A program made the translations under genes and the position numbers. A stretch of 33,312 bases of DNA from Planctomycetota bacterium. GTDB taxonomy: Bacteria; Planctomycetota; Planctomycetia; JALXBF01. The notes under the pieces are model-generated. The model was not told the origin of the DNA. It made no database searches and saw only the letters and a program-made list of their open reading frames with translations. Position 1 is the first letter of the stretch; the number at the start of each line of letters is the position of its first letter. Location of the stretch: the NCBI GenBank assembly GCA_026991575.1, contig JALXBF010000188.1:1-33312 (forward strand), given 5' to 3'. Shown here in pieces: positions 5,852 to 21,173 of this stretch.

Positions 5852-7204
5852 CTAGAGCAGCTCGTCCAGCAGGCCGCCGCTGGCGATGGTACCCTGCGCC
5901 AGGGGCGTGATGTAAGCCACGCGGCCCTGCGGGTGCGGCAGCCGCTTCTTGTAATCGATGCCAAGCTGGCGGTAGATGCTCGCACACAGGTCCCACGGGT
6001 AGCAGGGGCGGTCCTTCACGAACTCTGCCCGCTCGGTGCTTTCGCCCACGATGCGGCCGCCCTGGAAGCCACCGCCGGCCAAGGCGACGGAGAAGACGTT
6101 TGGCCAGTGGTGTCGGCCGCCCTGCCAGCGGCTCGACCAGTCGATCTTCGGTGTCCGGCCAAACTCACCCTGGACAACCACAATCGTGCTGTCCAGCAGA
6201 CCGCGCTCGTAGAGGTCTTCCAACAGCGCCGAGAGGGCGCGGTCCAGGTCGGGCAGGAGATTCTTCAGGGCCTCGAAGTTCTTGAAGTGGGTGTCCCAGC
6301 CACCTCGATGTACCGTGACGAACGGGACGCCGCGCTCCACCAGGCGGCGGGCCAGTAAGCAACTCTGGCCGAACGTCGTCTTGCCGTAGCGCTCACGCAG
6401 CTTGGGGTCTTCCTTCTTCAAGTCGAACGCCTCGCGTGCCGAACCGAGCACCAGCCCGTAGGCCCGCTCATAGTAGGTGTCCACCACCTCGAAGAGCCGT
6501 TGCTGCTCGAACTTCCGAGCGAACGTGTCGATCTGCTGCATGAGCGTGCGTCGCTTGACGGCGCGCTCGGGCGTCAGCCCCGCAGCAAGCTCCAGGCCCT
6601 GAACCTTGAAGTTCGGCGACGCCGGGTTGCCGCCGGTTGCAAACGGCTTGTAGCGGCCGCCAAGGAAACCGGCTTCGCCATACCATGGCGGCGCGCTGGG
6701 GATGGCCACAAACGGCGGGATCTCACCCTTGTACCCGGCTTCGTAGCCCTTCTCCAGAGCGACCACCGAGCCCATCGACGGGTAGACAAGACCGCCTTGC
6801 AACACGTTACCCGTGTTGACAATGTGCGTTGCGATCTCGTGAGCGGGCGATGGGTGCGTGAAGGCGCGGATGATCGAGAACTTGTCAAACGTTTCAGCCA
6901 GGCGAGGCAGATACTCGCTCAGATAAACGCCGGGAACCTTGGTGCGAATCGCCTTGTACGGCCCGCGGAAATCCTCAGGAGCATCCGGCTTCGGATCCCA
7001 GCTATCGATGTGCGACGGCCCGCCCGACAGCCAGATCTGAATGACGCTCTTGGCCGGTGCGTCCTGGACCGCACCTTCGGCTTTCAGACGGAGCCATGCG
7101 GGCAACGATAGGCCCAAGGTCGTGATGCTTCCAACACGCAGGAAATCGCGGCGGGTCCATCCGTCGCACGTTGCATGTTTGCTTCGGAATCGCAGGTCCA
7201 ACAT
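5852..7204 (-). CDS. DUF1501 protein with Tat signal (first pair)
   Basis: The 450-residue protein is a DUF1501 member, a family within the alkaline-phosphatase/sulfatase-like fold that is greatly expanded in Planctomycetota. Residues 17-40 carry a twin-arginine export signal (TRRDFLRVG followed by a hydrophobic stretch), so it is probably exported folded, with a cofactor or metal. Conserved family motifs are WLSGGPSHIDSWDPKPDAP near residue 58, HRGGWDTH near 300, VVQGEFGRTPKI near 345 and GRHHWPNVFSVALAGGG. The Asp/His residues in these blocks correspond to likely metal ligands by analogy with the fold, not by proof. The ATG is preceded by AGGAGG with 8-base spacing. It lies 91 bases downstream of the DUF1549/DUF1553 gene, the usual partner arrangement. 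Its substrate is unknown. Confidence 0.92.
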   Translation of the reverse strand: MLDLRFRSKHATCDGWTRRDFLRVGSITTLGLSLPAWLRLKAEGAVQDAPAKSVIQIWLSGGPSHIDSWDPKPDAPEDFRGPYKAIRTKVPGVYLSEYLPRLAETFDKFSIIRAFTHPSPAHEIATHIVNTGNVLQGGLVYPSMGSVVALEKGYEAGYKGEIPPFVAIPSAPPWYGEAGFLGGRYKPFATGGNPASPNFKVQGLELAAGLTPERAVKRRTLMQQIDTFARKFEQQRLFEVVDTYYERAYGLVLGSAREAFDLKKEDPKLRERYGKTTFGQSCLLARRLVERGVPFVTVHRGGWDTHFKNFEALKNLLPDLDRALSALLEDLYERGLLDSTIVVVQGEFGRTPKIDWSSRWQGGRHHWPNVFSVALAGGGFQGGRIVGESTERAEFVKDRPCYPWDLCASIYRQLGIDYKKRLPHPQGRVAYITPLAQGTIASGGLLDELL

Positions 7205-7295
7205 TGCGGCTACCTCCTGGCTGCTAGCCCGAGCAGCTTTGCGAAACCAACCGCTGACGCACCGTCATGTCACCGACGCCGACTGGTCGCGGGCA

Positions 7296-9764
7296 CTAGT
7301 GGTTGAACAGGAACTCTTTGGTGTTCAGCAACGCCCAGAGCACGTCCTGCAACGCTAGCTGACGGCCTTTCTTGCCGGCAGCCGCAACGTAGCCCACCGT
7401 GGCCTGAAGCTCTTCGGCGGTAGGCCGCCGACTGAGTGCGGCCAGGAAGAGCTCTTCGATGATCTGCTCATCGGACAGCCCTGCCTGGATCAGGCGCGTG
7501 ATCCGCCGGCCGCTCCGCAGCTTGCTCTCCATGTGGTTCGTGTTGATCAGATACAGAGCCTGGGACATGGAGGTTTCCTGTTTCCGTTCGCACTCGCATG
7601 TGATGTCCCGCGCCGGACGGCCGAACAGGTCCAGGAACGTGGAGCGGACCATGTTGTGGGGAAGCTGGATCGCACGCATGCCAACCGGCATGCCCGGAAA
7701 CCGCTCCGGCGCCTCGCACACCTGCGACACTGCATCGAGCAACTGCTCAGCCGTCAGCCGCTTGATCGGGTAGTGCGAGAAATGGACCGTGTCGTGCGCG
7801 TTCCACTTGTTGGGAATGCTCGACAGCTGGTAGACCTTCGAGTTCAAGATCAAGCGGAAGATGTGTTTCAGGTCCCAGTTGTTCTTGACGAGCTCTTCGG
7901 CCAGGTAATCGAGCAGCTCAGGGTTCTCCGGCGGGTTCGTGGCCCGGAAGTCGTCCGGTTCGTGCACGATCCCTCGGCCCATGAGCCAGTACCAGATGCG
8001 GTTGACGATACAGCGGGCAAACCACGGGTTCTCCGGACTGGTGAGCCACTCGGCAAGCACCTCGCGCGGATCCTGTTCCGGGCCGATCTGTGGCTTCTCG
8101 CCGGTGAGGAACTTTGGCTCGACGATCTGGCCTGTCTTCGGGTGGCGAACCCGCACGCCGGGGTCAAAGTAGACCACGTCTTCTCCCCACTCACGGGTGC
8201 GCTTGATCCGGACCTTGAAGAACGCTGCCAGCCCAAGGTTATCGTCCCAGGTCCAGGCCTCGAACGGGTGACTGTGGCAGTGAGCACAGTCGATGCGAAT
8301 ACCCAGGAACGTTGTCGCCGTCATTTCGGCCCAGCCCTGCGGGTCTCTCATCGTGGTGGCGCGGTAGTAGTTGGCGGGGCCAACACGGTAGGCGCTGCCG
8401 GAGGCAGTGATCAGCTCGCGCACGAACTGGTCGTACGGCTTGTTCTCCGCAATGCTCCGGCGGATCCACCCGTAGAAGGCAGCCACCCCCTTTGGCCAGA
8501 GCTGGATCGGGAACTCAGGCTTCACCCGCAGCAGATCCGCCCACTTCAAGGTCCAGAAGTCAACGAACTCGGGGCGCTCTAGAAGCCGGTCGATCAGCTT
8601 GGCACGCTTCTGTGGATCCGGGTCCGACAGGAACTGCCGCACTTCGTCCGGTGTGGGCAGAGTGCCAATCGTGTCGAGGTAGACCCGGCGAAGGAACATC
8701 TCATCGGTGGCCAGGTCCGAGGGTGGGATACCGAGTTTGCGAAGCTTGGCGAAGACCAGCTCGTCGATCCGGTTGTTCGGCTCAATGTCCGGAAAAGGCG
8801 TGGGCAGTCGCTGTGGCACCAGGATGCGGGCAGTGCCAAACTGACCACCGTAGCCGACAATGATGACCGCCTCGCCGTGTGAGACCACCTCAACCCGGCC
8901 CTGCTCATCGACGGTCGCAATGCCTGCTTCCGTGCTCGTGTAGTTGGCCAGGTGCGTAACGTCACGAGTGGTGCCGTCGGAGTAGTACGCGGTGACAAGG
9001 ATCTGCTGGCTCTGACCGATGTCCAGTAGCTGCTCGGCCGGGAATACCTCGATCCGTTCCAGCCGCACGTCGGCTGCTTTCTGTGGAGCCCCGCGGCGCA
9101 CCCATTCCAGCAGAAGCTGGTAGCTGTCCGAGCCGACATCAAACCGCTTGCCACCACCATGAGCGACCGTGGCCGTAGCCTTCAGCAGGAACAGACTCTT
9201 CTCCGGCTGCACCGGATCGATCAGGCGCGAGAACCGGTCCCGTGTCATGGCCACGGCATCCTCGTCAGGCTCGGCGCCAAATAGCGACAGGCGGAAGCCG
9301 TTCTTGCCACGGGGTGAGCCATGGCAACCGGTGATGTTGCAGCCGGCCTTGCTCAGCACAGGCAACACATCGCGACTGAAATCGATCGCGTCATCAGCAA
9401 GCTTGGCTACCGTGACCGTCGCGGTGGCACGCAGCGCCCCGACCTCCGCCACGATCCTGGTCTTGCCTTCTCCAACCGGCCAGACCACACCTTCACTGTC
9501 GACACGAGCCACCGCCTCGTTCTCACTGCGGAACCGCAGCCCGGTAATCACCTGCTGCGTACGACCGTCCGGCCGCTCAGCCATCACCACCAGCCGTTGG
9601 CGGCTCCGTGGCCCGTACAGCGAGAACTCCGCAGGCACCAACCGGATCGCCCGCCACGGTTGAGAGCCCGAGGGCTCTTCTGCCCACAGACCGGATGACA
9701 ATGTCAGCGGTAGCGAAAGGCTAAGAATAGCAGCTAGCAACAGGCACCTTGGTGCACGCCTCAT
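7296..9764 (-). CDS. PSCyt/DUF1549-DUF1553 secreted protein with BIG2 domains
   Basis: The 822-residue exported protein has a signal peptide (residues 1-28). An Ig-like BIG2 domain (about 38-120) is followed by a cytochrome-like segment (about 125-235), whose GCNITGCHGS gives a CX4CH haem-type motif at residues 142-148. A second BIG2 domain lies at about 240-325. DUF1549 (PSCyt2) runs from about 330 to 535 with a CAHCHSHPFE motif (CXXCH). DUF1553 (PSD1) occupies the C-terminal third and ends in the family hallmark ALLNTKEFLFNH. These proteins are typical of Planctomycetota and are almost always followed by a DUF1501 gene, as here. They are presumed to act at the cell surface or in the periplasm; whether they truly bind haem or degrade polymers is not established. 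GGAGGG precedes the ATG. Confidence 0.93.
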   Translation of the reverse strand: MRRAPRCLLLAAILSLSLPLTLSSGLWAEEPSGSQPWRAIRLVPAEFSLYGPRSRQRLVVMAERPDGRTQQVITGLRFRSENEAVARVDSEGVVWPVGEGKTRIVAEVGALRATATVTVAKLADDAIDFSRDVLPVLSKAGCNITGCHGSPRGKNGFRLSLFGAEPDEDAVAMTRDRFSRLIDPVQPEKSLFLLKATATVAHGGGKRFDVGSDSYQLLLEWVRRGAPQKAADVRLERIEVFPAEQLLDIGQSQQILVTAYYSDGTTRDVTHLANYTSTEAGIATVDEQGRVEVVSHGEAVIIVGYGGQFGTARILVPQRLPTPFPDIEPNNRIDELVFAKLRKLGIPPSDLATDEMFLRRVYLDTIGTLPTPDEVRQFLSDPDPQKRAKLIDRLLERPEFVDFWTLKWADLLRVKPEFPIQLWPKGVAAFYGWIRRSIAENKPYDQFVRELITASGSAYRVGPANYYRATTMRDPQGWAEMTATTFLGIRIDCAHCHSHPFEAWTWDDNLGLAAFFKVRIKRTREWGEDVVYFDPGVRVRHPKTGQIVEPKFLTGEKPQIGPEQDPREVLAEWLTSPENPWFARCIVNRIWYWLMGRGIVHEPDDFRATNPPENPELLDYLAEELVKNNWDLKHIFRLILNSKVYQLSSIPNKWNAHDTVHFSHYPIKRLTAEQLLDAVSQVCEAPERFPGMPVGMRAIQLPHNMVRSTFLDLFGRPARDITCECERKQETSMSQALYLINTNHMESKLRSGRRITRLIQAGLSDEQIIEELFLAALSRRPTAEELQATVGYVAAAGKKGRQLALQDVLWALLNTKEFLFNH

Positions 9765-10465: not shown

Positions 10466-11926
10466 TTAACCGAACAGACCGGTGACTACGTGGCCTTTTA
10501 CCAGTTCACGTGGCTGGTTCAAGTGGTTGTAGATGATCCGGTCGGGCTTGATGCCGAAGCAGTGGTAGATGGTTGCCAGCAGGTCCATCGGGTGCACGGG
10601 GTCCTTTCGAGGACTGGAGCCGGTCTTGTCGCTTTCGCCGTAGACGGCGCCGCGTGCAATCCCCGCACCGGCGATCAGTGCGGTGTAGCAGTACGGCCAG
10701 TGGTCGCGACCGTCGGCGGAGTTGTTGTTACCCGACGTGCTGACGCCCTTCTGCGGGCTACGGCCGAATTCGCCCACCGCAACCACGAGCGTCTCGTCCA
10801 GCAGGCCGCGTTGGGCCAGGTCCTCGATCAGGGCCGACATGCCCTGGTCGAACATGGGGGCCGCCTGGTTCTTCATCCGGTGGGTCAGGCCGACGTGCAC
10901 GTCCCAGGAGTGATTGTCTGAGTTGGCCACCTTGGGCCAGATGACCTCCACGACCCGGGTGCCGGCCTCAACCAGCCGACGCGCAAGCAGCAGGCTCTGA
11001 CCAAACGTATTTCGACCGTACCGATCGCGAACCTTTTCCGGCTCCTGTTTCAAGTCGAAGGCGTTCCGGGCACGGCGCGAGATGATCAGCTCCAGAGCAC
11101 GGCCGTAGTACTCGTCCAGGTTGTAGTTCTCAACGACCTTGTCCAGCCGCGACATACCCTTCTCAAGGATTTCCCGGAGCCGAGCGCGGCGCTGCATGCG
11201 CAACGCGTAGAGATGCGGCCTTAGGTCGAGGTCATCGACGCGGATGCGCTCCATCTTGTTCATGTCCATGTCGTCGCCTTCGGGGAACAGGTAGTATGGG
11301 TCGTACGCCCGGCCGAGGAAGCCTGCCGTCCCGCCCTTGTTGACCACGTTGCTTTCCTGCAGTGGCCTGGGCATCATGACAAACGGCAGCATCGGCTCGG
11401 TGACCGGCTTGAACTTGGTGATCCATGCGCCGAAGTTCGGGAAGTCCTTGGGGCTGGGCGGCTCCAATTGGCCGGACGGACTGACCTTGTCGGTCGTATA
11501 GCCGGTCATCATCTGGTAGATGGCTGCCGTGTGGTTGAACAGGCCAACCGGCGTGTAGCTCATGGACCGGATCAGCGTGATCTTGTCGGTCACCTGAGCC
11601 AACTGTGGCAGCAACTCCGTGAACTTAACACCGGGCAGCTTGGTCGAGATCGGCTTGAACACGCTGCGGATGTTATCGGGCACATTCTCTTTTGGGTCCC
11701 AGAGGTCCAGGTGGCTCGGCCCTCCTTGCAGAAAGATCATGATGATGTGTTTCGCCGAGTTCCAGCCGGGACCACCGCCTTCCGCCGCACTGGCCTGCTG
11801 CAGTCGAAGCATGGAGCCGAGGGTCATGCCCAACAAGGCGGACCCACCGACCCGAAGCAGTTCGCGGCGCGACATGTACTTCTCGTCACATAAGTCTCGG
11901 CCTGCAGGTCCGGGAATCACCAACAT
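10466..11926 (-). CDS. DUF1501 protein with Tat-like signal (second pair)
   Basis: The 486-residue protein is a second DUF1501 member, partner of the 1729-residue gene directly upstream (66-base gap). The export signal has [10 protein letters not shown] at about residues 19-28, followed by a hydrophobic stretch, consistent with the Tat pathway. Family blocks are [19 protein letters not shown] near residue 68, [25 protein letters not shown] and [17 protein letters not shown]. It differs from the first DUF1501 protein in length and in the central region, which has many charged residues ([19 protein letters not shown]), so the two are diverged paralogues rather than recent copies. The ATG is preceded by GGAGA with 7-base spacing. 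It is predicted to be extracytoplasmic; substrate unknown. Confidence 0.92.
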
Positions 11927-11992: not shown

Positions 11993-14900
11993 CTAGTGGT
12001 TGAACAGGAACTCGGACGTATTCACTAGCGCCCAGACGATGTCCTGGGCAGCGGTCAAGCGGTACCGCTGAACGTCCTTCTTGCTGAGCTCGACCGCTCG
12101 ACGAAGATCGCGGAGCTTCGGATCGATCGGAATCGGCTTCTTCGCCTCGGCCAGTTTCCGTTCAAGCTCCACGAGTTTCGGATCGGCCGGCAGCGGTTTC
12201 TTGGCTTCCGCAAGCTGCTTCTGAAGTCGGCGGTACTCCAGGTCTGCCTCTTTGTAGAAATCGGCCAGTTTCTGCCACTGCTCCTCGGTCAACTTCTCTG
12301 GTGCCGACGCGGTCAGCTTGCGAACCTCCTCGGGCAGCTCCGTGAGCACGACCGGTGCTGTCTGGCCCGTGACACTCAGGCGGAACTTACCCAGTGAGTG
12401 CTGACCGCTAGTGAAGTTCTGGTTCAGCTCGATTACCAGCACGACACCTTCGTCGAAGCTCACCGGTTCGGCTAGCTCGAAGACGGCCACGTGGTCCTTG
12501 CCCTGCTGTGGCGCGATGGCCCAGCCGTTTTTCTGTCGGTCTAGCTTACCGTCGATAGCGGTCTCGACCGAGTAGTCCTTCTGGCTGAAGTCGGCGCGGG
12601 CGTGCATCAGCTGCAGCCGCCGTCGCTGGTCCGGCTTGCCCTTCGGGTACGCGTACACGATGAATTCGGTCAGCACGAAATTGCCGTCCGGAGCCCGTCC
12701 GGGTCCCTTGCGGCTGAACCGCTTGTCGGCCAGTGCTTCCAGTCGGATTGCCGTCACGCGCGGCAGCGGCACTTCGGCCGTGACGCGGTAGACGCCTGCC
12801 CCGTTGCCTCCTTCTGAGAGGATGACACCGTTGCCGACGTGCTTCAGCTTAAACGGACCGTCTGCTGCCAGCTTCGCCGGTTCGAGCACCGTCCAGGCGG
12901 TGCCGGGGCTGCCCGCGGCCAGCCAGCCCTTGATCCGCGCGCGGAGCTCTTGCTGATACGCAGCCACCCGTTTTTCGGCGGCGGCAATTCGTGCCTGCCG
13001 TTGCTTTTCTAGCTTTGCGCGCTGCGGGGCGATCTTCTTGCGGTAGGCTTCCAGCTCAGCCTGGGCCCGCGCGATCCGCTCCTGCCGCTGCTTCTCCAAC
13101 CGCTCCATGGTCGGCCGCAGTTTTTGCTCATACGCGGCCAACTCTGCGACAAGCCGCTTGTGCATTTCGGGCGTGCGTCGGATGTAGTCCACGCACCGCT
13201 CCACTTCTTGCTCGGTGGGTGGTCGGTTGAGCACGCGGAGGAACAGTTTCCGGACCAGCTCGCGATCGTCTTTGGTCTCGGCGACCAGTCGGGCGATCGC
13301 GTTGTTCGGGTCGACGATCGCTTCTTCAACGACTTCGCTGCTGACCATCGACAGTACTGCACCCAGGTCGATACCGGTGGAGCGTTCGCACTCGCACGGG
13401 CTCTCGCGGGGCGGACGACCGAACTTCTCGAGGAATCCGGCGGGGTCCTTTTCGGCCGGGTCCAGCAGTGCTGCGGCGCGGCCACGCGGCAGCTTCGGCT
13501 TGGCGCCCGTGACCGTGTAGATCGCGTCCAGAAGCGCTTCAGCCGGCAATCGCTTGGGCATGTAGTGCGAGTAGTTCAGCTTGTCGTCTTCGTTCCAGCG
13601 GTTGGTCGTGCAGGCAAGCTGGTAGGTGCGCGACTTGCAGATCAGCTTGATCAAGTGCTGCACGTCCCAGCCGCTGTTGATGAACTCTTCGGTCAGCCGA
13701 TCAAGCAACTCCGGGTTCGTAGGCGGGTTGCCCGCACGGATGTCGTCGATCGGCTCAATGAAGCCACGGCCCATCAGGTAGGCCCACACGCGGTTAACGT
13801 AACTACGTGCGAAGTAGGGGTTGTCGGGCGACGTGAGCCATGCGGCCAGCTTTTCGCGGAGGGTTGCGGTCTCCGATACTTCATAGCGACACTCGAAGGG
13901 GAACTTCGGTGGCGCTACTTCTTGAGTCTCGCCGTAGTACACCTTCCCGTCGGGCACATCCTCGACGATCTCAAACAGCGGCTTGGCGCCTTCAACCGCC
14001 GTGCCTCCAATTTTCTTGTTGCCGCTGGCCGGATCTTTCTTCAGCCGGACGCCACCGAAGAACGCGGCCAGCTCGTAGTACTGCCGCTGGTTCCATCGTT
14101 CGAACGGGTGATCGTGGCACTTGTTGCAGTTGAAACGGATTGCCAGGAACAGGTGCGTGGTGGTCTCGACCAACTGATCCGGAGTACGGTGGATCTTGAA
14201 GTACGCTGCAGGCGGGTTGTCCTTGTTGGAGCCGCGTGCGGTGATTAGCTCGTACACGAACTCGTTGTACGGCCGGTTGTTCTTGACCTGCTCGCGGATC
14301 CAGTCGCGGAACTTGCGGGCGCCTTCCACACCCAGGTACTTGCGGTTCACCTGCAGCAGGTCGGCCCACTTGTTCGTCCAGTACTCGACGAAGGCATCGG
14401 AACCGACGAGTCGGTCGATCAGCTCGTCGCGTTTCTGCCTTGATGGCCGCTTGTCTGCCAGGAACTTTTCGACTTCCTCCAGTGTCGGGGGCACGCCGGT
14501 GAGGTCCAGGTAGACGCGTCGGATGAACTCAGCGTCGTCGCAGATGTCGGACGGTAGCGTCTTGATCTTGCGCAGCTTCTTGTAGACGAGTTCGTCGATG
14601 AAGTTGTATGCGGGGGGATCGTTCCAGACGAAGCCGGAGCGGTCGCCCATGACGAAGAGCGTCGTGGAGGCGTACTGGCCCTCGTACCTGGCCAGCACCG
14701 GCGCCTCGCCGCGGCGCACCGCAACCAGCAGGGCCTGGCCGGCTTCGACGGCCACCTCTGTATCACCACTGGTCACAAACGCCTGATCCGTGACGTCGCG
14801 TCGGGTACCATCCGGATAGATGGCAACCACGCGGAACTGCTGCTTACCGCCCACGCGCCAGACGATCGGATCACGCGGCTCAATTTCCAGCCGGGCCACA

Positions 14901-17182
14901 CGATCGACGCCCGTGTCGATGTGAGCGCCTTCTTCGATCCAGCGCCGGATGATTTCATAGCCGGGCGAGCCGGGCCGCAGAGCTCGTCCTCCCATGTGCG
15001 GCACCTCGGCCGTGGGCTTCAGCAGCATGAGCGAATCCTCTGGAGCAGCCAGGTTGATGCGCCTTCCGGCCAGATCGTCCGTCAGGGCGCGATAGTCGAA
15101 CACCGGGTCATTGCCCCGCAACGAGAGCTTGAAGCCCCCCTTGCCCTTGGCCGCCCCATGGCACGTGCCCGTGTTGCAGCCCGCTTTGCTCAGCACCGGC
15201 ATCACGTCACGCACGAAATCGACATGGTAATCAGTGGCGAAGGCCGACACGTACACGGTCGCCTGCACCGCGTGCTTACCGTAAGTGAACGTCAGGTTGG
15301 CCCGACCGTTCGCCTTGGGCCGAACCAGCCCGTTGGGCATGATCGCCACGTTGTCGTTGTCGCTAACGATCTTCACCACACGGGTGATGTCATGAGCAGC
15401 GCCGTCGGGAGTGAACGCGGTGACCACGAACTGGACCGTGTCAAACGGGAAAGACACCGTGAACTCGGTGGGAGTGACCGAAATCCGCGCCACCTGCTCC
15501 GGTGCCGGTACAGGCTCCTGGTCCTTGGTGGCCAGTGTCCGCAGATCATGCTCAATCGCCTCTTTGATTGCATCGGCAGCCCGCTGCTGCTGCGCAAGAA
15601 CGCCGCCGTCGACCACCGACTCTGGCGGCACCGGCGAGAATTCCTTGAGCACCTTCGCGCCATTGGCGTCGATGACGCGCACCAGCCCATCAGCACCCGC
15701 GGCTATCACCCACCGACCCGACGGATGGAAGGCGACCGCATACAGAGCCGATGCGTCCAACTGCAACCGTGCGACGACCTTCACGTCCTTGGTACGGTAC
15801 TGTTCCAGCTTCTTCTTCTCCTCCGCCGTCCGGCTCATCACCGTCTTTTCCGAAATCTTCTTGATCTCGGGCGGAATGTCCTTCTCAAAGCGGAACTCGT
15901 AAATGACCAACTCCCCGCGTCCATCCAGACTGCTGACCGCGACCGCACGTTTCCCGTCCGGGCTGACGTCCACCGCAAAGATCCGCCCTTTCAACGGTGG
16001 GAACCGGCGGATCAGGTTCGCATCATCGCCGATAACCCGCTTCGTTTGCCGGAAGACGCGGTACAGCTTTGGTGTGCCGTCGGCGCCGCCCACAAGGACG
16101 AAATCGCCGGCAGGATGGCGCACAACCGCCTGCACGCCCCCTTTCAGTGCCCCCGGCGTGATCGACGTGATGTTGTCGATGAACCGCTGAGTGGCCACCT
16201 CGGTCAATTTCACCGATCGGTCCCGGCTGACGGAAATCAGATGCGAACCGTCCTTGGAGAAGACCGTATCTAGAACCCAGTCTTCATGCGCCCCCTGATA
16301 CAGCACTTCCTTGCCCGTGGCTACCTCGATCGCCCGGACCGTGTTGTCCGCACAGCCGAAGGCAACGAGCTTCCCATCCGGCGACCAACTGACGCCGTAG
16401 ACGGTGTCGTAGGTAATCGGCACGGAGCGTGCCAGTGTCTTGTTGGCCACATCCCAGATCTGAATCTCGCCCAGCCGGCCGGGCTTGCCTGCCGCAACGG
16501 CAAGCAGACGGCCGTCCGGGGAGAAAGCAACCTTCTGAATCCGTGGCGACATGCCTACCAGCCGGGCTACCAGCGTCGTGCCGGGTGCCGCATCCGTGTC
16601 GGCCTTGTCGCCCTGCTTGGCTTCTGTTTCCTCGAAGCGGTACACGAAGACTTCGTGATAGCCGGCAATGGCCAGGAGGGAGCCGTCGGGCGACAGATCC
16701 AGTGACGTGATGATCGGAGGCCGGGTGTAGACCGGCGGGTTCTCGGGCGTGAAGCGCAGCTTTTCGGTGGGCGGGCTGTCGTCGCGAGCTCCCTGTTTGA
16801 TCCACAGCTTGATCAGCTCGATCTGCTCGGGCTTCAGTGGCGGCTTGCCTTTGGGCATCTCCGCTGTGTCGCCCAACGGCGTGATCAGGTCAACCAGCGG
16901 GCTCTCGTCCGGCTTGCCCGGCACGATCGCCGGCTCACCGCTCTCGCCCCCCTTCAACAACGCCTCGAACTCCGTCATCACATACCCGCCCTTGGCCTGA
17001 GCAGGCTGGTGGCATCCCCAGCACTGAGCCTGAAAAATCGGGCGGATCTGCCGGTAGTAGCTGACCGGGCCGCTCTCCGCATCAGCCGCCACGGCGACTG
17101 TTACAGAAAAGCAAAGCGTCATCAGGAGGGAAAGCAGAGAGAACCAGCTCAGGAGGTCGGATACGAAGCGAGGCACTCGCAT
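11993..17182 (-). CDS. Giant PSCyt1-WD40-BIG2-DUF1549-DUF1553 exported protein
   Basis: The 1729-residue protein starts with a signal peptide (residues 1-33). A planctomycete cytochrome domain (PSCyt1) follows, with QCWGCHQ giving CXXCH at 54-58. WD40-type beta-propeller repeats cover about 150-540 (repeated FSPDGRLLAVA-like strands). A BIG2 Ig-like domain is followed by a second cytochrome-like segment with CNTGTCHG (CX4CH). DUF1549 contains FNCNKCHDHPFERW (CXXCH). DUF1553 then follows, ending in WALVNTSEFLFNH. Between the DUF1553 body and that terminal motif lie about 350 extra residues: Lys/Arg/Glu-rich coiled-coil repeats, a beta-rich domain and a second helical repeat. The ATG at 17182 has GGAGGAG upstream and begins the signal peptide; an in-frame start at 17257 adds 25 unlikely residues. 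The protein is probably surface or periplasmic, and possibly haem-binding; function is unestablished. Confidence 0.92.
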   Translation of the reverse strand: MRVPRFVSDLLSWFSLLSLLMTLCFSVTVAVAADAESGPVSYYRQIRPIFQAQCWGCHQPAQAKGGYVMTEFEALLKGGESGEPAIVPGKPDESPLVDLITPLGDTAEMPKGKPPLKPEQIELIKLWIKQGARDDSPPTEKLRFTPENPPVYTRPPIITSLDLSPDGSLLAIAGYHEVFVYRFEETEAKQGDKADTDAAPGTTLVARLVGMSPRIQKVAFSPDGRLLAVAAGKPGRLGEIQIWDVANKTLARSVPITYDTVYGVSWSPDGKLVAFGCADNTVRAIEVATGKEVLYQGAHEDWVLDTVFSKDGSHLISVSRDRSVKLTEVATQRFIDNITSITPGALKGGVQAVVRHPAGDFVLVGGADGTPKLYRVFRQTKRVIGDDANLIRRFPPLKGRIFAVDVSPDGKRAVAVSSLDGRGELVIYEFRFEKDIPPEIKKISEKTVMSRTAEEKKKLEQYRTKDVKVVARLQLDASALYAVAFHPSGRWVIAAGADGLVRVIDANGAKVLKEFSPVPPESVVDGGVLAQQQRAADAIKEAIEHDLRTLATKDQEPVPAPEQVARISVTPTEFTVSFPFDTVQFVVTAFTPDGAAHDITRVVKIVSDNDNVAIMPNGLVRPKANGRANLTFTYGKHAVQATVYVSAFATDYHVDFVRDVMPVLSKAGCNTGTCHGAAKGKGGFKLSLRGNDPVFDYRALTDDLAGRRINLAAPEDSLMLLKPTAEVPHMGGRALRPGSPGYEIIRRWIEEGAHIDTGVDRVARLEIEPRDPIVWRVGGKQQFRVVAIYPDGTRRDVTDQAFVTSGDTEVAVEAGQALLVAVRRGEAPVLARYEGQYASTTLFVMGDRSGFVWNDPPAYNFIDELVYKKLRKIKTLPSDICDDAEFIRRVYLDLTGVPPTLEEVEKFLADKRPSRQKRDELIDRLVGSDAFVEYWTNKWADLLQVNRKYLGVEGARKFRDWIREQVKNNRPYNEFVYELITARGSNKDNPPAAYFKIHRTPDQLVETTTHLFLAIRFNCNKCHDHPFERWNQRQYYELAAFFGGVRLKKDPASGNKKIGGTAVEGAKPLFEIVEDVPDGKVYYGETQEVAPPKFPFECRYEVSETATLREKLAAWLTSPDNPYFARSYVNRVWAYLMGRGFIEPIDDIRAGNPPTNPELLDRLTEEFINSGWDVQHLIKLICKSRTYQLACTTNRWNEDDKLNYSHYMPKRLPAEALLDAIYTVTGAKPKLPRGRAAALLDPAEKDPAGFLEKFGRPPRESPCECERSTGIDLGAVLSMVSSEVVEEAIVDPNNAIARLVAETKDDRELVRKLFLRVLNRPPTEQEVERCVDYIRRTPEMHKRLVAELAAYEQKLRPTMERLEKQRQERIARAQAELEAYRKKIAPQRAKLEKQRQARIAAAEKRVAAYQQELRARIKGWLAAGSPGTAWTVLEPAKLAADGPFKLKHVGNGVILSEGGNGAGVYRVTAEVPLPRVTAIRLEALADKRFSRKGPGRAPDGNFVLTEFIVYAYPKGKPDQRRRLQLMHARADFSQKDYSVETAIDGKLDRQKNGWAIAPQQGKDHVAVFELAEPVSFDEGVVLVIELNQNFTSGQHSLGKFRLSVTGQTAPVVLTELPEEVRKLTASAPEKLTEEQWQKLADFYKEADLEYRRLQKQLAEAKKPLPADPKLVELERKLAEAKKPIPIDPKLRDLRRAVELSKKDVQRYRLTAAQDIVWALVNTSEFLFNH
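12115..12214 (-). repeat. 60-base tandem repeat within the giant gene
   Basis: Two units with a 60-base period (20 residues) encode LAEAKKPLPADPKLVELERK and LAEAKKPIPIDPKLRDLRRA. The DNA copies match most closely around the GATCG(A/G)(T/C)CGG and CGG(C/T)TTCTT blocks at 12121 and 12181. This is an in-frame duplication that extends a charged helical segment just before the C-terminal DUF1553 motif. Confidence 0.7.
12940..13110 (-). repeat. 87-base coiled-coil repeat within the giant gene
   Basis: Two copies, 87 bases apart (29 residues), each contain LEKQRQ-x-RIA followed by a heptad-like helix ending in AYRKKI or AYQQEL. A third, degenerate AYEQKL copy precedes them in the protein. The pattern indicates a long charged coiled coil built by internal duplication. 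Confidence 0.6.
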
Positions 17183-17266
17183 GCAGATCTCCTCCCGGCA
17201 CAATGCGGGAAGCAAGGCGGTGGGTTCGGATGGCGTCCAGTCGTCTGGGTGGATCAACGCATGTTT

Positions 17267-17642: not shown

Positions 17643-18311
17643 TTACTCTTCCTCCACCTCCTCGTCTGTCGGTTCCTCGAGCACCTGTTCCTCTTCTTCC
17701 TCAAGTTCTTCCTCAAGCTCTCCGCCAATGCCGCTCTCGGCGGTTGCTTCGGGCTCTTCTTCTTCAGCCAGTGCCTCCATCTCGACGGCGCGGCTCCAGG
17801 CGCTCGGGCCGGTGTATACCGAGCCTTCGCCGTACTCTTCCTCGTACTCAGCCTGGCATTTGACGCACAGCGTCGTGTACGGCAGGGCCTTCAGCCGCGC
17901 GGCCGGGATAGGCTGGCCACACTCTTCGCAGATGCCGTAGGTCCCTTCGCGAATCCGCTGCAGTGCGTGCTCAATTCTCCTCAGCTCCTGACTCTCCAAC
18001 TCCGCCAGCTGTGAATAAAGATCCTCCTGCATGATGTCCATTGCGACATCGGCGGAATCGCCCGTGGGGCTGGCGGCGTCCTTGCGTAGCGAGCCGATGC
18101 CGCCCTGCAGTTCGCGCAGCAGCTCTTCGCGCCGCTGCAGCAGCTGTTCTTCGAGCTTTTTCAGCTCGTCCTTACGGCGCTTGGCGGTCTTGCCCGCAGT
18201 CTTGTTACGAGCCGCCGGCGTCTTCTTCGCGCTGCGCGAGGCGCTGCTCTTGGCCGCTTTCTTCGCCCGGGTCGTCCCCTGCTTCTTCGTTGTCCGCTTC
18301 TTGGCGCTCAT
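17643..18311 (-). CDS. DksA/TraR-family zinc-finger protein with charged tails
   Basis: The 222-residue protein has three parts. Residues 1-48 are Lys/Arg/Ala/Thr-rich (TTKKQGTTRAKKAAKSS), like bacterial histone H1-type tails. Residues 48-160 are a DksA/TraR-like core: a coiled-coil hairpin (KKLEEQLLQRREELLRELQ), an acidic DIMQEDLYSQLAELESQEL segment, and a four-cysteine zinc finger (C128-x2-C131 and C149-x2-C152, with YGICEECGQPIP). Residues 176-222 are almost entirely Glu with hydrophobics. DksA-type proteins bind the RNA polymerase secondary channel and alter initiation. The basic tail suggests additional nucleic-acid contact, which is an inference. The ATG at 18311 has GAGGAG upstream; the frame is open further upstream but without family sequence. 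The tails are much longer than in typical DksA. Confidence 0.85.
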   Translation of the reverse strand: MSAKKRTTKKQGTTRAKKAAKSSASRSAKKTPAARNKTAGKTAKRRKDELKKLEEQLLQRREELLRELQGGIGSLRKDAASPTGDSADVAMDIMQEDLYSQLAELESQELRRIEHALQRIREGTYGICEECGQPIPAARLKALPYTTLCVKCQAEYEEEYGEGSVYTGPSAWSRAVEMEALAEEEEPEATAESGIGGELEEELEEEEEQVLEEPTDEEVEEE

Positions 18312-18432
18312 GGTGCCGCTCCTCGCGTTTGCGTTCCCGCCCTCTCCCTTCCGACTCCTCAGAAGGTGTTCTCGGTGACCAAGCCAAGTTCTGCAACTTC
18401 GACCACCAGCCTGCCGGATCGTTCCCTGCAGG

Positions 18433-19359
18433 CTAGCCGTCGGCCAGGCGGGCCAACTCGGCTGCCAATCGATTCGCAGAACTATACCTTTCTTCCGGTT
18501 GCTTTGCCAGTAGCCGGCGCACCAGTTCACGCACCTGCTGCCCCACGGCGGAGTCTCGGACAGCCGGGTCTGGTACAGGCCCGCGGGCGTGCAGGTAGAG
18601 CATCTCCATTTCGCTGCCGGCCTCGTACGGCAGCCGGCCTGTCAACAGCTGGAACAGCACGCAGCCCAGCGCGTAGAGGTCCGACTTCGGCGACCACTCT
18701 CCCGAGCCGTCGGCCAACTCCGGCGCCAAGAACGCCGCCGTGCCCGTCAGACGCTCAGGGGCTGGTCGAAGCGGCTCATCGCTTGGTATCGCCAGCCCGA
18801 AGTCGGCCACTTTAAGCCGCTCTGGGCCCGCTGCCATCAAGAGGTTCTCCGGCTTGATGTCCCGATGAATGACTCCCGCGGCATGAACGGCTGCAAGCCC
18901 TGCCGCGGCGGCCGCTGCCAGGCGCAGCGCCTCGCGGAGCGATGGTCGCCAACCCTCAGCCAGGACGTTCTCCAAGGTCTTCTGGGTCGACACCCACTCC
19001 ATGGCCACCAGGGCGCGGCCCGCATCGATCGGCGCCACCGCATAATGCCGTACGACGTTCGGGTGCTGGATAGCTAGCACGCGGTTCAGCGCGCGCAGGA
19101 GCCGCTGGCGGGCCTGGTCATCGGAGGGTAGATCGAGCAGCTTCAGCGCAACCGGCGTGCCGCTGGCTCGGTCCCGTGCTCGATAAACCTGTCCGCGGGC
19201 TCCTAACCCGATGAGCTCTTCGATTTCGTATCGCTCGAATTCGGGCCGATCAACGTCGTGTACCACCGAATCTCTACGGTTCCCAGTACAGTGCCTTTCC
19301 GGCGCGGCGCCTGCGGATGCAGCACGTTGGCCCAGCCGCTTGCCGCCGCGACCGGCCAT
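18433..19359 (-). CDS. Soluble Ser/Thr protein kinase (Hanks type)
   Basis: The 308-residue protein is one complete eukaryote-like kinase domain with no transmembrane or sensor domain. Visible motifs are the glycine loop GLGARGQVY (51-59), the ATP-binding Lys in VALKLLD (about 73), the catalytic loop HRDIKPEN (166-172, Asp167), the metal-binding DFG (186-188), the activation segment LTGTAAFLAPEL and the later DLYALGCVLFQLLTGRLPY helix. It should phosphorylate Ser or Thr on cytoplasmic proteins. The first 35 residues are basic and low in structure; a GTG at 19266 could be the true start, since neither has a clear ribosome binding site. It lies 36 bases after the MFS gene and 121 bases before the DksA-like gene. 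Targets cannot be told from sequence. Confidence 0.92.
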   Translation of the reverse strand: MAGRGGKRLGQRAASAGAAPERHCTGNRRDSVVHDVDRPEFERYEIEELIGLGARGQVYRARDRASGTPVALKLLDLPSDDQARQRLLRALNRVLAIQHPNVVRHYAVAPIDAGRALVAMEWVSTQKTLENVLAEGWRPSLREALRLAAAAAAGLAAVHAAGVIHRDIKPENLLMAAGPERLKVADFGLAIPSDEPLRPAPERLTGTAAFLAPELADGSGEWSPKSDLYALGCVLFQLLTGRLPYEAGSEMEMLYLHARGPVPDPAVRDSAVGQQVRELVRRLLAKQPEERYSSANRLAAELARLADG

Positions 19360-19395
19360 GCCATCTGGAAGGCGCGGCTCGGTTCGGCAACGGCG

Positions 19396-20661
19396 CTAGC
19401 CGGCTGCCGGGGCACGGCCGACGGTGGTGCTGCGTCGCCGGCCGGTCAGCCGTGCGAAGATGACCGCGGCTGCCAGCATTGCCAGGGCAAAGCCGGCGAT
19501 CACCAGGAAGACGGGGGCCAGCGATCCGGTCCGCTGCCAAACTTCCCCCGCGACTGATGATCCGAGCGCACCGACGCCAAAGCCGAGCACGAACTTCAGC
19601 GAGTAGTAGGTGCTCCGATGCCTGGCTGGTGTGACATGGGCGATAATCGCGTTTTCCACGGGCTGCTCGGCGAACTGAACCAGCGCCAGCAGCGACGCCG
19701 CCGCCACCGCAAGTGCCGTGGTGGGGGCCAGGGCTACGCCGATGGCTGCTGGGATCGACAGCGCGATGAGCAGGACGTAGAGCCGTTCGGGCCGCACCCG
19801 GTCCGCCCATCGCCCCCCAAAAAACTGCCCTACACTGCCCAGCGCAAGCGGCACCATGGTCAGCACAATCGCCGCCCACGCTCCGAGTGCCGAGGTGGCC
19901 AAGCTCTGCTTCAGCAGCGTCGGCAGCGCGGTCGTGAATGACCGGTAGCATAGTCCCCCCAGGAGCACGGCTGCGTATAGCGGCAGCAGGTAGCCGAGCA
20001 GTGAGCGGGTGGAGTCGGCCGGCTGCTCGCCGGGCTGCCGGGTACGGTCACTGCCTGGCCGGCGGCCACCGATGCCCCGTCCGGCACCGGAGCAGCTCAG
20101 CAGCAAGGCGGCAGCGCCGGCTACGGCCGCCACGGTCAGGTAGGCCCACCGCCAGTGCCCGAGCTGGGCCATCCACAGTCCGAACGCCGGGCCCACGGTG
20201 ATGCCTACGCTGCCGGCAACGCCGTGGATTCCCATGGCACGCCCCTTGCGTCGGCAGCCAAGCGACAGCAGGGCGAGCCCGGCCGGATGGTATAGACTCA
20301 CTGCTGCCCCCATGACGGTCAGTCCGGCAACCAGTCCCCAGACGCTACCGCTTGCCGCGCACCAGAGCCCTGCGCCGGCGACGGCCGCGAAGTACGCGAT
20401 CAGGATCGCACGGGGGGAGTAGCGGTCGGTTAGCAGGCCGGCCGGGATGGCACCCACGCCCATGAGGATCCAGCCCACGACGGGGATCGCGGTGGCCAGC
20501 CGTTTCGACAGCGCGAACTCCTGTTGCACCGCCACCAGCACCCCAGTGAACAGCAACTCCGCTATATGGCACAGCGCGTGACCGGTGCTGGCCAACACAA
20601 TCAGCGGCCATTCTGCGGACCGAGTCGGTGTTCCGGTCGCAGGTTCCTGGACCAACGTCAT
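19396..20661 (-). CDS. MFS transporter, Fsr (fosmidomycin resistance)-like
   Basis: The 421-residue protein shows about twelve hydrophobic helices and a hydrophilic loop near the middle (GRGIGGRRPGSDRTRQPGEQ), the standard MFS 6+6 plan. The first cytoplasmic loop has GLLTDRYSPRAIL, matching the MFS G-x3-D-R motif. Helix 4 has SLYHPAGLALLSL and helix 5 HGVAGSVGITVGPAFG, which resemble the Fsr subgroup of drug-exporting MFS proteins. It probably exports small molecules from the inner membrane, but the substrate cannot be assigned. The gene starts 17 bases after the tadA stop, so it is probably co-transcribed with the translation genes upstream. GGAGAA precedes the ATG. Confidence 0.87.
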   Translation of the reverse strand: MTLVQEPATGTPTRSAEWPLIVLASTGHALCHIAELLFTGVLVAVQQEFALSKRLATAIPVVGWILMGVGAIPAGLLTDRYSPRAILIAYFAAVAGAGLWCAASGSVWGLVAGLTVMGAAVSLYHPAGLALLSLGCRRKGRAMGIHGVAGSVGITVGPAFGLWMAQLGHWRWAYLTVAAVAGAAALLLSCSGAGRGIGGRRPGSDRTRQPGEQPADSTRSLLGYLLPLYAAVLLGGLCYRSFTTALPTLLKQSLATSALGAWAAIVLTMVPLALGSVGQFFGGRWADRVRPERLYVLLIALSIPAAIGVALAPTTALAVAAASLLALVQFAEQPVENAIIAHVTPARHRSTYYSLKFVLGFGVGALGSSVAGEVWQRTGSLAPVFLVIAGFALAMLAAAVIFARLTGRRRSTTVGRAPAAG

Positions 20662-20678
20662 GATGGCATGTTCTCCGT

Positions 20679-21173
20679 TCAGCGGCGCTCGCGGAAGAAG
20701 CGGCGCAGCAACTCAGCCGCCTCCTCAGCAAGCACACCGCCTCGAAGCTCAGCTCTGTGGTTCAGCCGGGGGTCGTTCACCAGACGGTACAGCGACTCGC
20801 ACGCGCCTGCTTTCGGATCGCGTGCTCCGTAGACGACCCGAGCGATGCGCGCCTGGACGATCGCCCCGGCGCACATCGGACAAGGCTCCAGGGTGACGTA
20901 CAACGTACAGCCTTCCAGGCGCCAGTCGTTGCGGGCGGCGGCCGCCTGAGTGATCGCGATCATTTCCGCGTGAGCGGTCGGATCACGTAACTGCTCGCGC
21001 TGGTTGTGCGCTGCCGCAAGGAGGCGGTCTCCCTGAACGATGACGGCCCCGACCGGCACCTCTCCCTCAGCCATGGCCGCTTCCGCCTCGCGTAGCGCCA
21101 GCCGCATGTAGTACTCGTCACGCTCGTGCCGCTGCTTGTCCCGCTCCGCGCCGTTGCGGCCGTTCTCCCTCAT
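20679..21173 (-). CDS. tadA: tRNA-specific adenosine deaminase
   Basis: The 164-residue cytidine-deaminase-fold enzyme converts A34 to inosine in tRNA-Arg(ACG) so that one tRNA reads several Arg codons. The zinc site is visible: H68-A-E70 in TAHAEM, and C98 and C101 in [17 protein letters not shown] near the N-terminus, [16 protein letters not shown] and NHRAEL further on are TadA-specific. Length is close to that of the E. coli enzyme. The first 18 residues are charged and variable; the ATG at 21173 lacks a strong ribosome binding site. The gene lies 12 bases after rsmA and 17 bases before the MFS gene, consistent with one operon. Confidence 0.93.

Follow-up and report, generated by a model that had tools for sequence, protein, structure and literature searches.

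The giant DUF1549/DUF1553 protein encoded in the window, that is, the whole stretch of 33,312 nucleotides of Planctomycetota DNA analysed here, carries near its C-terminus an insert which is a real, conserved and previously undescribed accessory arm. This arm is probably rigid, with a length-matched antiparallel stalk holding a lectin-like, putatively glycan-binding head at a set distance from the DUF1553 core. The insertion point, the fold of the head and arms, the antiparallel 20:29 register, the joint arm lengths, the deep conservation and the recurrence of the head at another site in other DUF1553 proteins were all established by computation.

The order of parts in the giant is signal peptide, PSCyt1 (residues 79–136 by Pfam), WD40 repeats (about 183–530), Ig-like and CX4CH segments, PSCyt2, PSD1, the stalk–head insert and the C-terminal motif (Table 1). 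Residues are numbered from the TTG; a typical signal peptide begins with the ATG found at residue 26 (position 17182), the likelier start codon. Both curated Pfam cut-offs are passed, with 174 bits for PF07583 (cut-off 29.8) and 158 bits for PF07587 (28.5). According to the sequence and its homologues, the region between WD40 and PSCyt2 consists of an Ig-like segment, the CX4CH segment (694) and a second Ig-like segment, the Ig-like ones being Big_2-type. The first of them, between WD40 and CX4CH, is absent in L174, L142, L205 and L086 and in L190 and L261; homologues lacking it show a PSCyt1-to-CX4CH distance of about 485–500 versus about 595 otherwise, and the domain appears to have been lost independently in several lineages. 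Haem-type motifs occur at CWGCH (79), CNTGTCH (694) and CNKCH (1044), and CECER (1288, in PSD1) is near-invariant, so that the giant looks like a putative multihaem or metal-binding protein. The homologue consensus of the C-terminal core helix is WALINSPAFLFNH.

Table 1. Features of the giant gene and its neighbours in the window (residues numbered from the TTG).
Feature	Position	Strand	Basis
Giant DUF1549/DUF1553 CDS	11993..17257	(-)	1754 codons counted from TTG; Pfam PSCyt1, WD40, PSCyt2, PSD1
PSCyt2 / DUF1549, residues 887-1070, contains CNKCH	14048..14599	(-)	Pfam E 4.8e-51
PSD1 / DUF1553 (Pfam limits), residues 1134-1358	13184..13858	(-)	Pfam E 3.1e-46
Insertion missing from 822-aa paralogue, residues 1360-1731	12065..13180	(-)	BLASTP break at 1359, restart at terminal motif
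Outgoing arm, single unbroken 99-residue helix, residues 1349-1447	12917..13213	(-)	AlphaFold2 (model 463-561), pLDDT mostly 85-94
29-residue unit 1, residues 1373-1401	13055..13141	(-)	Autocorrelation, pairwise gaps
29-residue unit 2, residues 1402-1430	12968..13054	(-)	Autocorrelation, pairwise gaps
Beta-sandwich head, residues 1449-1631	12365..12913	(-)	AlphaFold2, Foldseek; without Pfam or NCBIfam match
Return arm, residues 1632-1731: cap helices by the head, then short helices with Pro-rich linkers	12065..12364	(-)	AlphaFold2
20-residue unit 1, LQKQLAEAKKPLPADPKLVE, residues 1678-1697	12167..12226	(-)	Autocorrelation, pairwise gaps
20-residue unit 2, LERKLAEAKKPIPIDPKLRD, residues 1698-1717	12107..12166	(-)	Autocorrelation, pairwise gaps
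C-terminal core helix, RLTAAQDIVWALVNTSEFLFNH, residues 1733-1754	11996..12061	(-)	AlphaFold2 and paralogue BLASTP
DUF1501 gene, directly downstream of the giant, conserved partner	10466..11926	(-)	Pfam E 1.1e-103
822-aa DUF1549/DUF1553 paralogue without insert	7296..9764	(-)	Pfam, BLASTP

First of all, the insertion is defined by the 822-aa paralogue in the same window. BLASTP matches residues 592–1359 of the giant to residues 40–793 of the paralogue (40% identity over 777 residues), and the two are next aligned only at the C-terminal WALVNTSEFLFNH. Since the alignment breaks at 1359 and restarts at this motif, about 370 residues have been inserted at a single point, in agreement with the large insertion before the C-terminal motif that the initial annotation had proposed; the paralogue, which was said to close the gap with 30–50 residues, in fact does so with about 6. 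It could be argued that the segment is normal DUF1553 fold and only looks inserted because Pfam PSD1 stops early, considering that PSD1 ends at 1358 by Pfam and the core goes on in the last 22 residues. However, a paralogue of such identity bridges the gap almost directly, many DUF1553 proteins do without the segment, and the head folds alone; the paralogue alignment, the core tree and the isolated head fold refute this reading, which is hardly credible. Most DUF1553 proteins lack a segment of that length at this place: among the roughly 20 DUF1553 genes of the host genome, the window giant alone has it after PSD1. The idea that the module is unique to this subfamily did not survive, as 56 of 59 genomes from the same class contain this head (1–14 copies each), mostly between DUF1549 and DUF1553.

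An AlphaFold2 model of residues 887–1754, built with 32 homologues, places twelve beta strands (1460–1630) between both arms, which gives the separately folded beta-sandwich between two helical arms that had been anticipated. The outgoing helix is about 148 Å long if straight. The return-arm helices are predicted at 1643–1649, 1658–1671, 1673–1685, 1693–1706 and 1713–1730 (757–763, 772–785, 787–799, 807–820 and 827–844 in model numbering), and then comes the terminal core helix. The long stalk suggested at the outset is therefore borne out, with the helical arms coming from AlphaFold2 and their antiparallel pairing from coevolution and indels; as the pTM of the whole model is 0.59, the angle between stalk and core is not fixed by it.

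Both repeats of the initial annotation hold as well, because the autocorrelation at lags 29 and 20 rises above that of all 2000 shuffles, and both lags are seen again in most orthologues. The 29-residue repeat has two units and a partial third, the 20-residue repeat two units and a degenerate third. No DNA tandem repeat lies behind the units of either length, so the duplications must be old. In the 79 GTDB loci from two phyla, the arm lengths are near constant, with medians of 99 and 120, and they differ by a few residues only across Planctomycetota and Verrucomicrobiota. These observations make it very improbable that the charged repeats are low-complexity filler, that is, flexible linkers or slippage products: the composition is charged and in places rich in alanine and lysine, as filler would be, but the missing DNA repeat, the narrow range of arm lengths over two phyla, the high pLDDT along the 99-residue helix and the inter-arm couplings in antiparallel register all speak against it.

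Moreover, the two arms change length in step. Among 151 distinct homologues that have the module behind PSD1, arm lengths (outgoing/return) take three joint states of about 41/68, 70/87 and 99/107 residues (ranges 36–50 with 55–69, 69–70 with 87, and 95–104 with about 104–112); mixed states, in which a unit is missing from one arm but kept in the other, do not occur among the 151. The return arm alone differs by about 13 residues in L206, L220 and L248, and the value of 120 for L038 is artefactual, the head match being truncated there. When the two-unit L178 is aligned with the one-unit L190 (Planctomycetales bacterium ZRK34), the gaps are exactly 29 and 20 residues. In the PSCyt2-to-PSD1 tree, whose columns leave out both arms, the zero-unit form branches at the base and the two-unit form has a single origin. 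The one-unit form lies within the two-unit form, so that one unit was lost there from both arms. The 29-residue and 20-residue units thus come and go in pairs, and the changes amount to two evolutionary events rather than 151 independent ones. The stalk would thus be modular, each 29-residue helical unit pairing with one 20-residue helix-plus-linker unit, and with such pairing both arms must change length together. The geometry would fit, as 29 helical residues span about 43 Å (29 × 1.5 Å) and a helix of 14 residues with about 6 extended ones spans about 41 Å.

The antiparallel pairing was examined by mean-field DCA of 125 two-unit sequences (effective number 103), with the band slope of -20/29 set from the indels before the test. 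For the arms touching ANTIPARALLEL, the antiparallel band of this slope scores 6.69, against a null of 2.53 (SD 0.53) from 300 return-arm column permutations, none of which was as high, and parallel slopes score 1.7–2.8 (best 2.75). Seven of the 10 strongest pairs and 11 of the top 20 fall inside the band, which occupies 6.2% of the cells. A first statistic, the position correlation in the top 40 pairs, was uninformative and was replaced by this band test. The DCA, the AlphaFold2 topology and the joint indels together describe an antiparallel stalk, in which the arms of a single chain are paired in fixed register.

Modelled on its own in AlphaFold2 with 78 homologues, the head attains a pLDDT of 95 and a pTM of 0.90. 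Pfam yields nothing for the window head even at E 0.1, NCBIfam has no match to it either, and sequence searches of the PDB, run with the isolated head as well as the 78-row profile, gave no match even at E 1 and 5. Of the 78 heads, 18 match PF00754 weakly (best E 0.0013), none of them near the Pfam cut-off. The head defines a domain family missing from Pfam and NCBIfam. Foldseek with the head alone returns CBM6, CBM32, legume lectins, CBM27 and factor VIII C2 at E of about 0.003–0.03 and TM of 0.3–0.5, with no fold match at E < 0.001; the whole C-terminal model gives mixed, long, low-TM matches, and the head alone is cleaner, though not significant. Since no fold or Pfam match is significant, the head is called lectin-like and is not assigned to CBM or F5/8C; from its predicted model it would be a lectin/CBM-type sandwich, not provably CBM6, CBM32, legume lectin, CBM27 or factor VIII C2. 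Homology of the head and F5/8C is not claimed, the F5/8C-bearing segment of L006 reaching only 15% against the head profile A3 (hhalign).

In terms of distribution, a survey of 392 genomes from across the phylum finds the head in at least 147 of them; 8 candidates per genome were scored, so that copy numbers are lower bounds. Its proteins are of two classes. Class A has the order PSCyt2–PSD1–[stalk, head, stalk]–terminal motif, either as WD40 giants of about 1560–1830 aa or as smaller proteins of about 1100–1250 aa; class B, the site of most other heads, has PSCyt2–[arm, head, arm]–PSD1 and about 900–1100 aa. In the core tree, class A is one clade (100%) and class B lies in a separate clade, which means that the head was inserted at two different sites. 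The complete giant arrangement is found in 79 of the best 80 GTDB loci, the 80th being a partial ORF with PSD1 and head. Across Planctomycetota and Verrucomicrobiota, the WD40 giant is conserved together with its full-length stalk. It is also seen in MAG records labelled Akkermansia muciniphila or Candidatus Kuenenia (L136, L140, L165, L196, L203), and these species labels on environmental MAGs are probably wrong.

The class-B gap between PSCyt2 and PSD1 serves as a plug-in site for varied domains among the paralogues of the host genome: F5/8C domains occupy it in L005 (2263–3345) and L006 (2242–3219), and a beta-rich domain in L001 (2263–3282). At the same site, L004 has a divergent head (hhalign against profile A3, 91%), and L003 and L009 have arms without a recognisable head. 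Two tandem heads within one reading frame were seen in G055:C1:3793182-3794594 (1221 aa) and G234:C60:34109-35719 (1249 aa).

With regard to gene neighbours, a DUF1501 gene lies directly downstream of the giant in 55 of the 74 named orthologue loci with room for it, and the window itself contains the two-gene unit WD40-DUF1553–DUF1501 on the same strand. A second DUF1549/DUF1553 and DUF1501 pair at 5852–9764 makes two such units in tandem. Upstream of the giant, on the same strand (17643–21173), are genes for a DksA-type zinc finger protein, a Ser/Thr kinase, an MFS transporter and a deaminase. In those orthologue loci that were checked, no homologue of the last three was seen next to the giant.

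The conserved DUF1501 neighbour raises the main alternative, a protein–protein docking arm, whose head would bind no glycan and would keep either the DUF1501 partner or the WD40 propeller at the N-terminus of the giant itself at a fixed distance. The checked zero-unit (n=0) proteins are without PSCyt1, WD40 or a DUF1501 neighbour, n=1 proteins and giants both carry WD40, and a stalk length near constant over two phyla is what a fixed partner distance would lead one to expect. Nevertheless, this alternative seems unlikely, as other DUF1553 proteins bear this head type between different flanks and the WD40 link amounts to one event only. A candidate relation between stalk length and the loss of the first Ig-like domain was also rejected, for the n=1 clade is without the domain and four n=2 giants likewise, and this too counts against docking.

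For the glycan-binding arm, the proposed mechanism is that the 99-residue helix leaves the DUF1553 core and holds the jelly-roll-type beta-sandwich head about 15 nm out, while the return arm, with its short helices and proline-rich linkers, would lead back beside it in antiparallel fashion as far as the terminal core helix. The head may bind a glycan, either a substrate or an envelope polysaccharide, and the stalk would set the distance of the head from the haem-motif core of the secreted giant. Because the fold matches lie only at E of about 0.003–0.03, we infer glycan binding from several pointers: the CBM6/CBM32/legume lectin/factor VIII C2 fold matches, the weak PF00754 matches, the true F5/8C domains that paralogues carry at the alternative site, and the CBMs carried by published PSCyt proteins (PMC5615132). 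A stronger form, put forward tentatively and somewhat doubtful as a whole, is that the stalk acts as a molecular ruler of a previously undescribed kind, an antiparallel coiled coil whose repeats are unequal (29 out, 20 back), which changes length only by whole paired units and has kept two of them over two phyla because the head needs a fixed distance from the haem-motif core, and that the head founds a glycan-binding family reused at two sites.

The core family is already known from the examined text of PMC5615132, as are the CBMs found in some of its members. PSCyt2–PSD1 proteins with carbohydrate-binding modules were presented there (He et al. 2017, Fig. 8, groups I–III), and the added domains are thought to bind glycan. 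They share with the giant the DUF1549/DUF1553 core and the added CBM or F5/8C domains, as well as WD40, Big_2 and an occurrence in Verrucomicrobia in addition to Planctomycetes. The domains listed in that text are named Pfam domains only (LamG_3, NPCBM, CBM_6, PA14, F5_F8_type_C, Big_2 and WD40), and the nameless head, the stalk and the insertion after PSD1 are not described in it. Nor was a description of the head, stalk or insertion site seen in the few papers on DUF1549, DUF1553, DUF1501 and PSCyt2 retrieved from the mostly freely accessible literature. Many planctomycete genomes encode dozens of DUF1549/DUF1553/DUF1501 proteins, for which no function is known (He et al., PMC5615132). The conserved head and its length-controlled arm offer a concrete approach to the giant member. 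The head, an isolated high-confidence domain, can be expressed and screened for ligands as one handle on the giant, and the stalk, whose length can be altered by exact paired units, offers a second.

F5/8 type C domains carry the signature 'A.DG..T.W'. The F5/8 type C (discoidin, galactose-binding-like, PF00754) and CBM6/CBM32 jelly-roll domains are beta-sandwiches like the head, whose 'AxxAIDG..tGWA' resembles that signature; however, the window head has no significant match to them, contains an extra conserved loop GPGR-x-x-(N/D)GN and, at about 180 residues, is longer than most CBM6/32. The dynein stalk and the SMC/Rad50 arms are antiparallel coiled-coil stalks with a tip domain. As in these systems, the chain of the giant is predicted to go out and back with its arms in fixed register and to carry a domain far from the core; unlike them, it has asymmetric arms, in which a continuous helix with a 29-residue unit is opposed to a helix-linker arm with a 20-residue unit.
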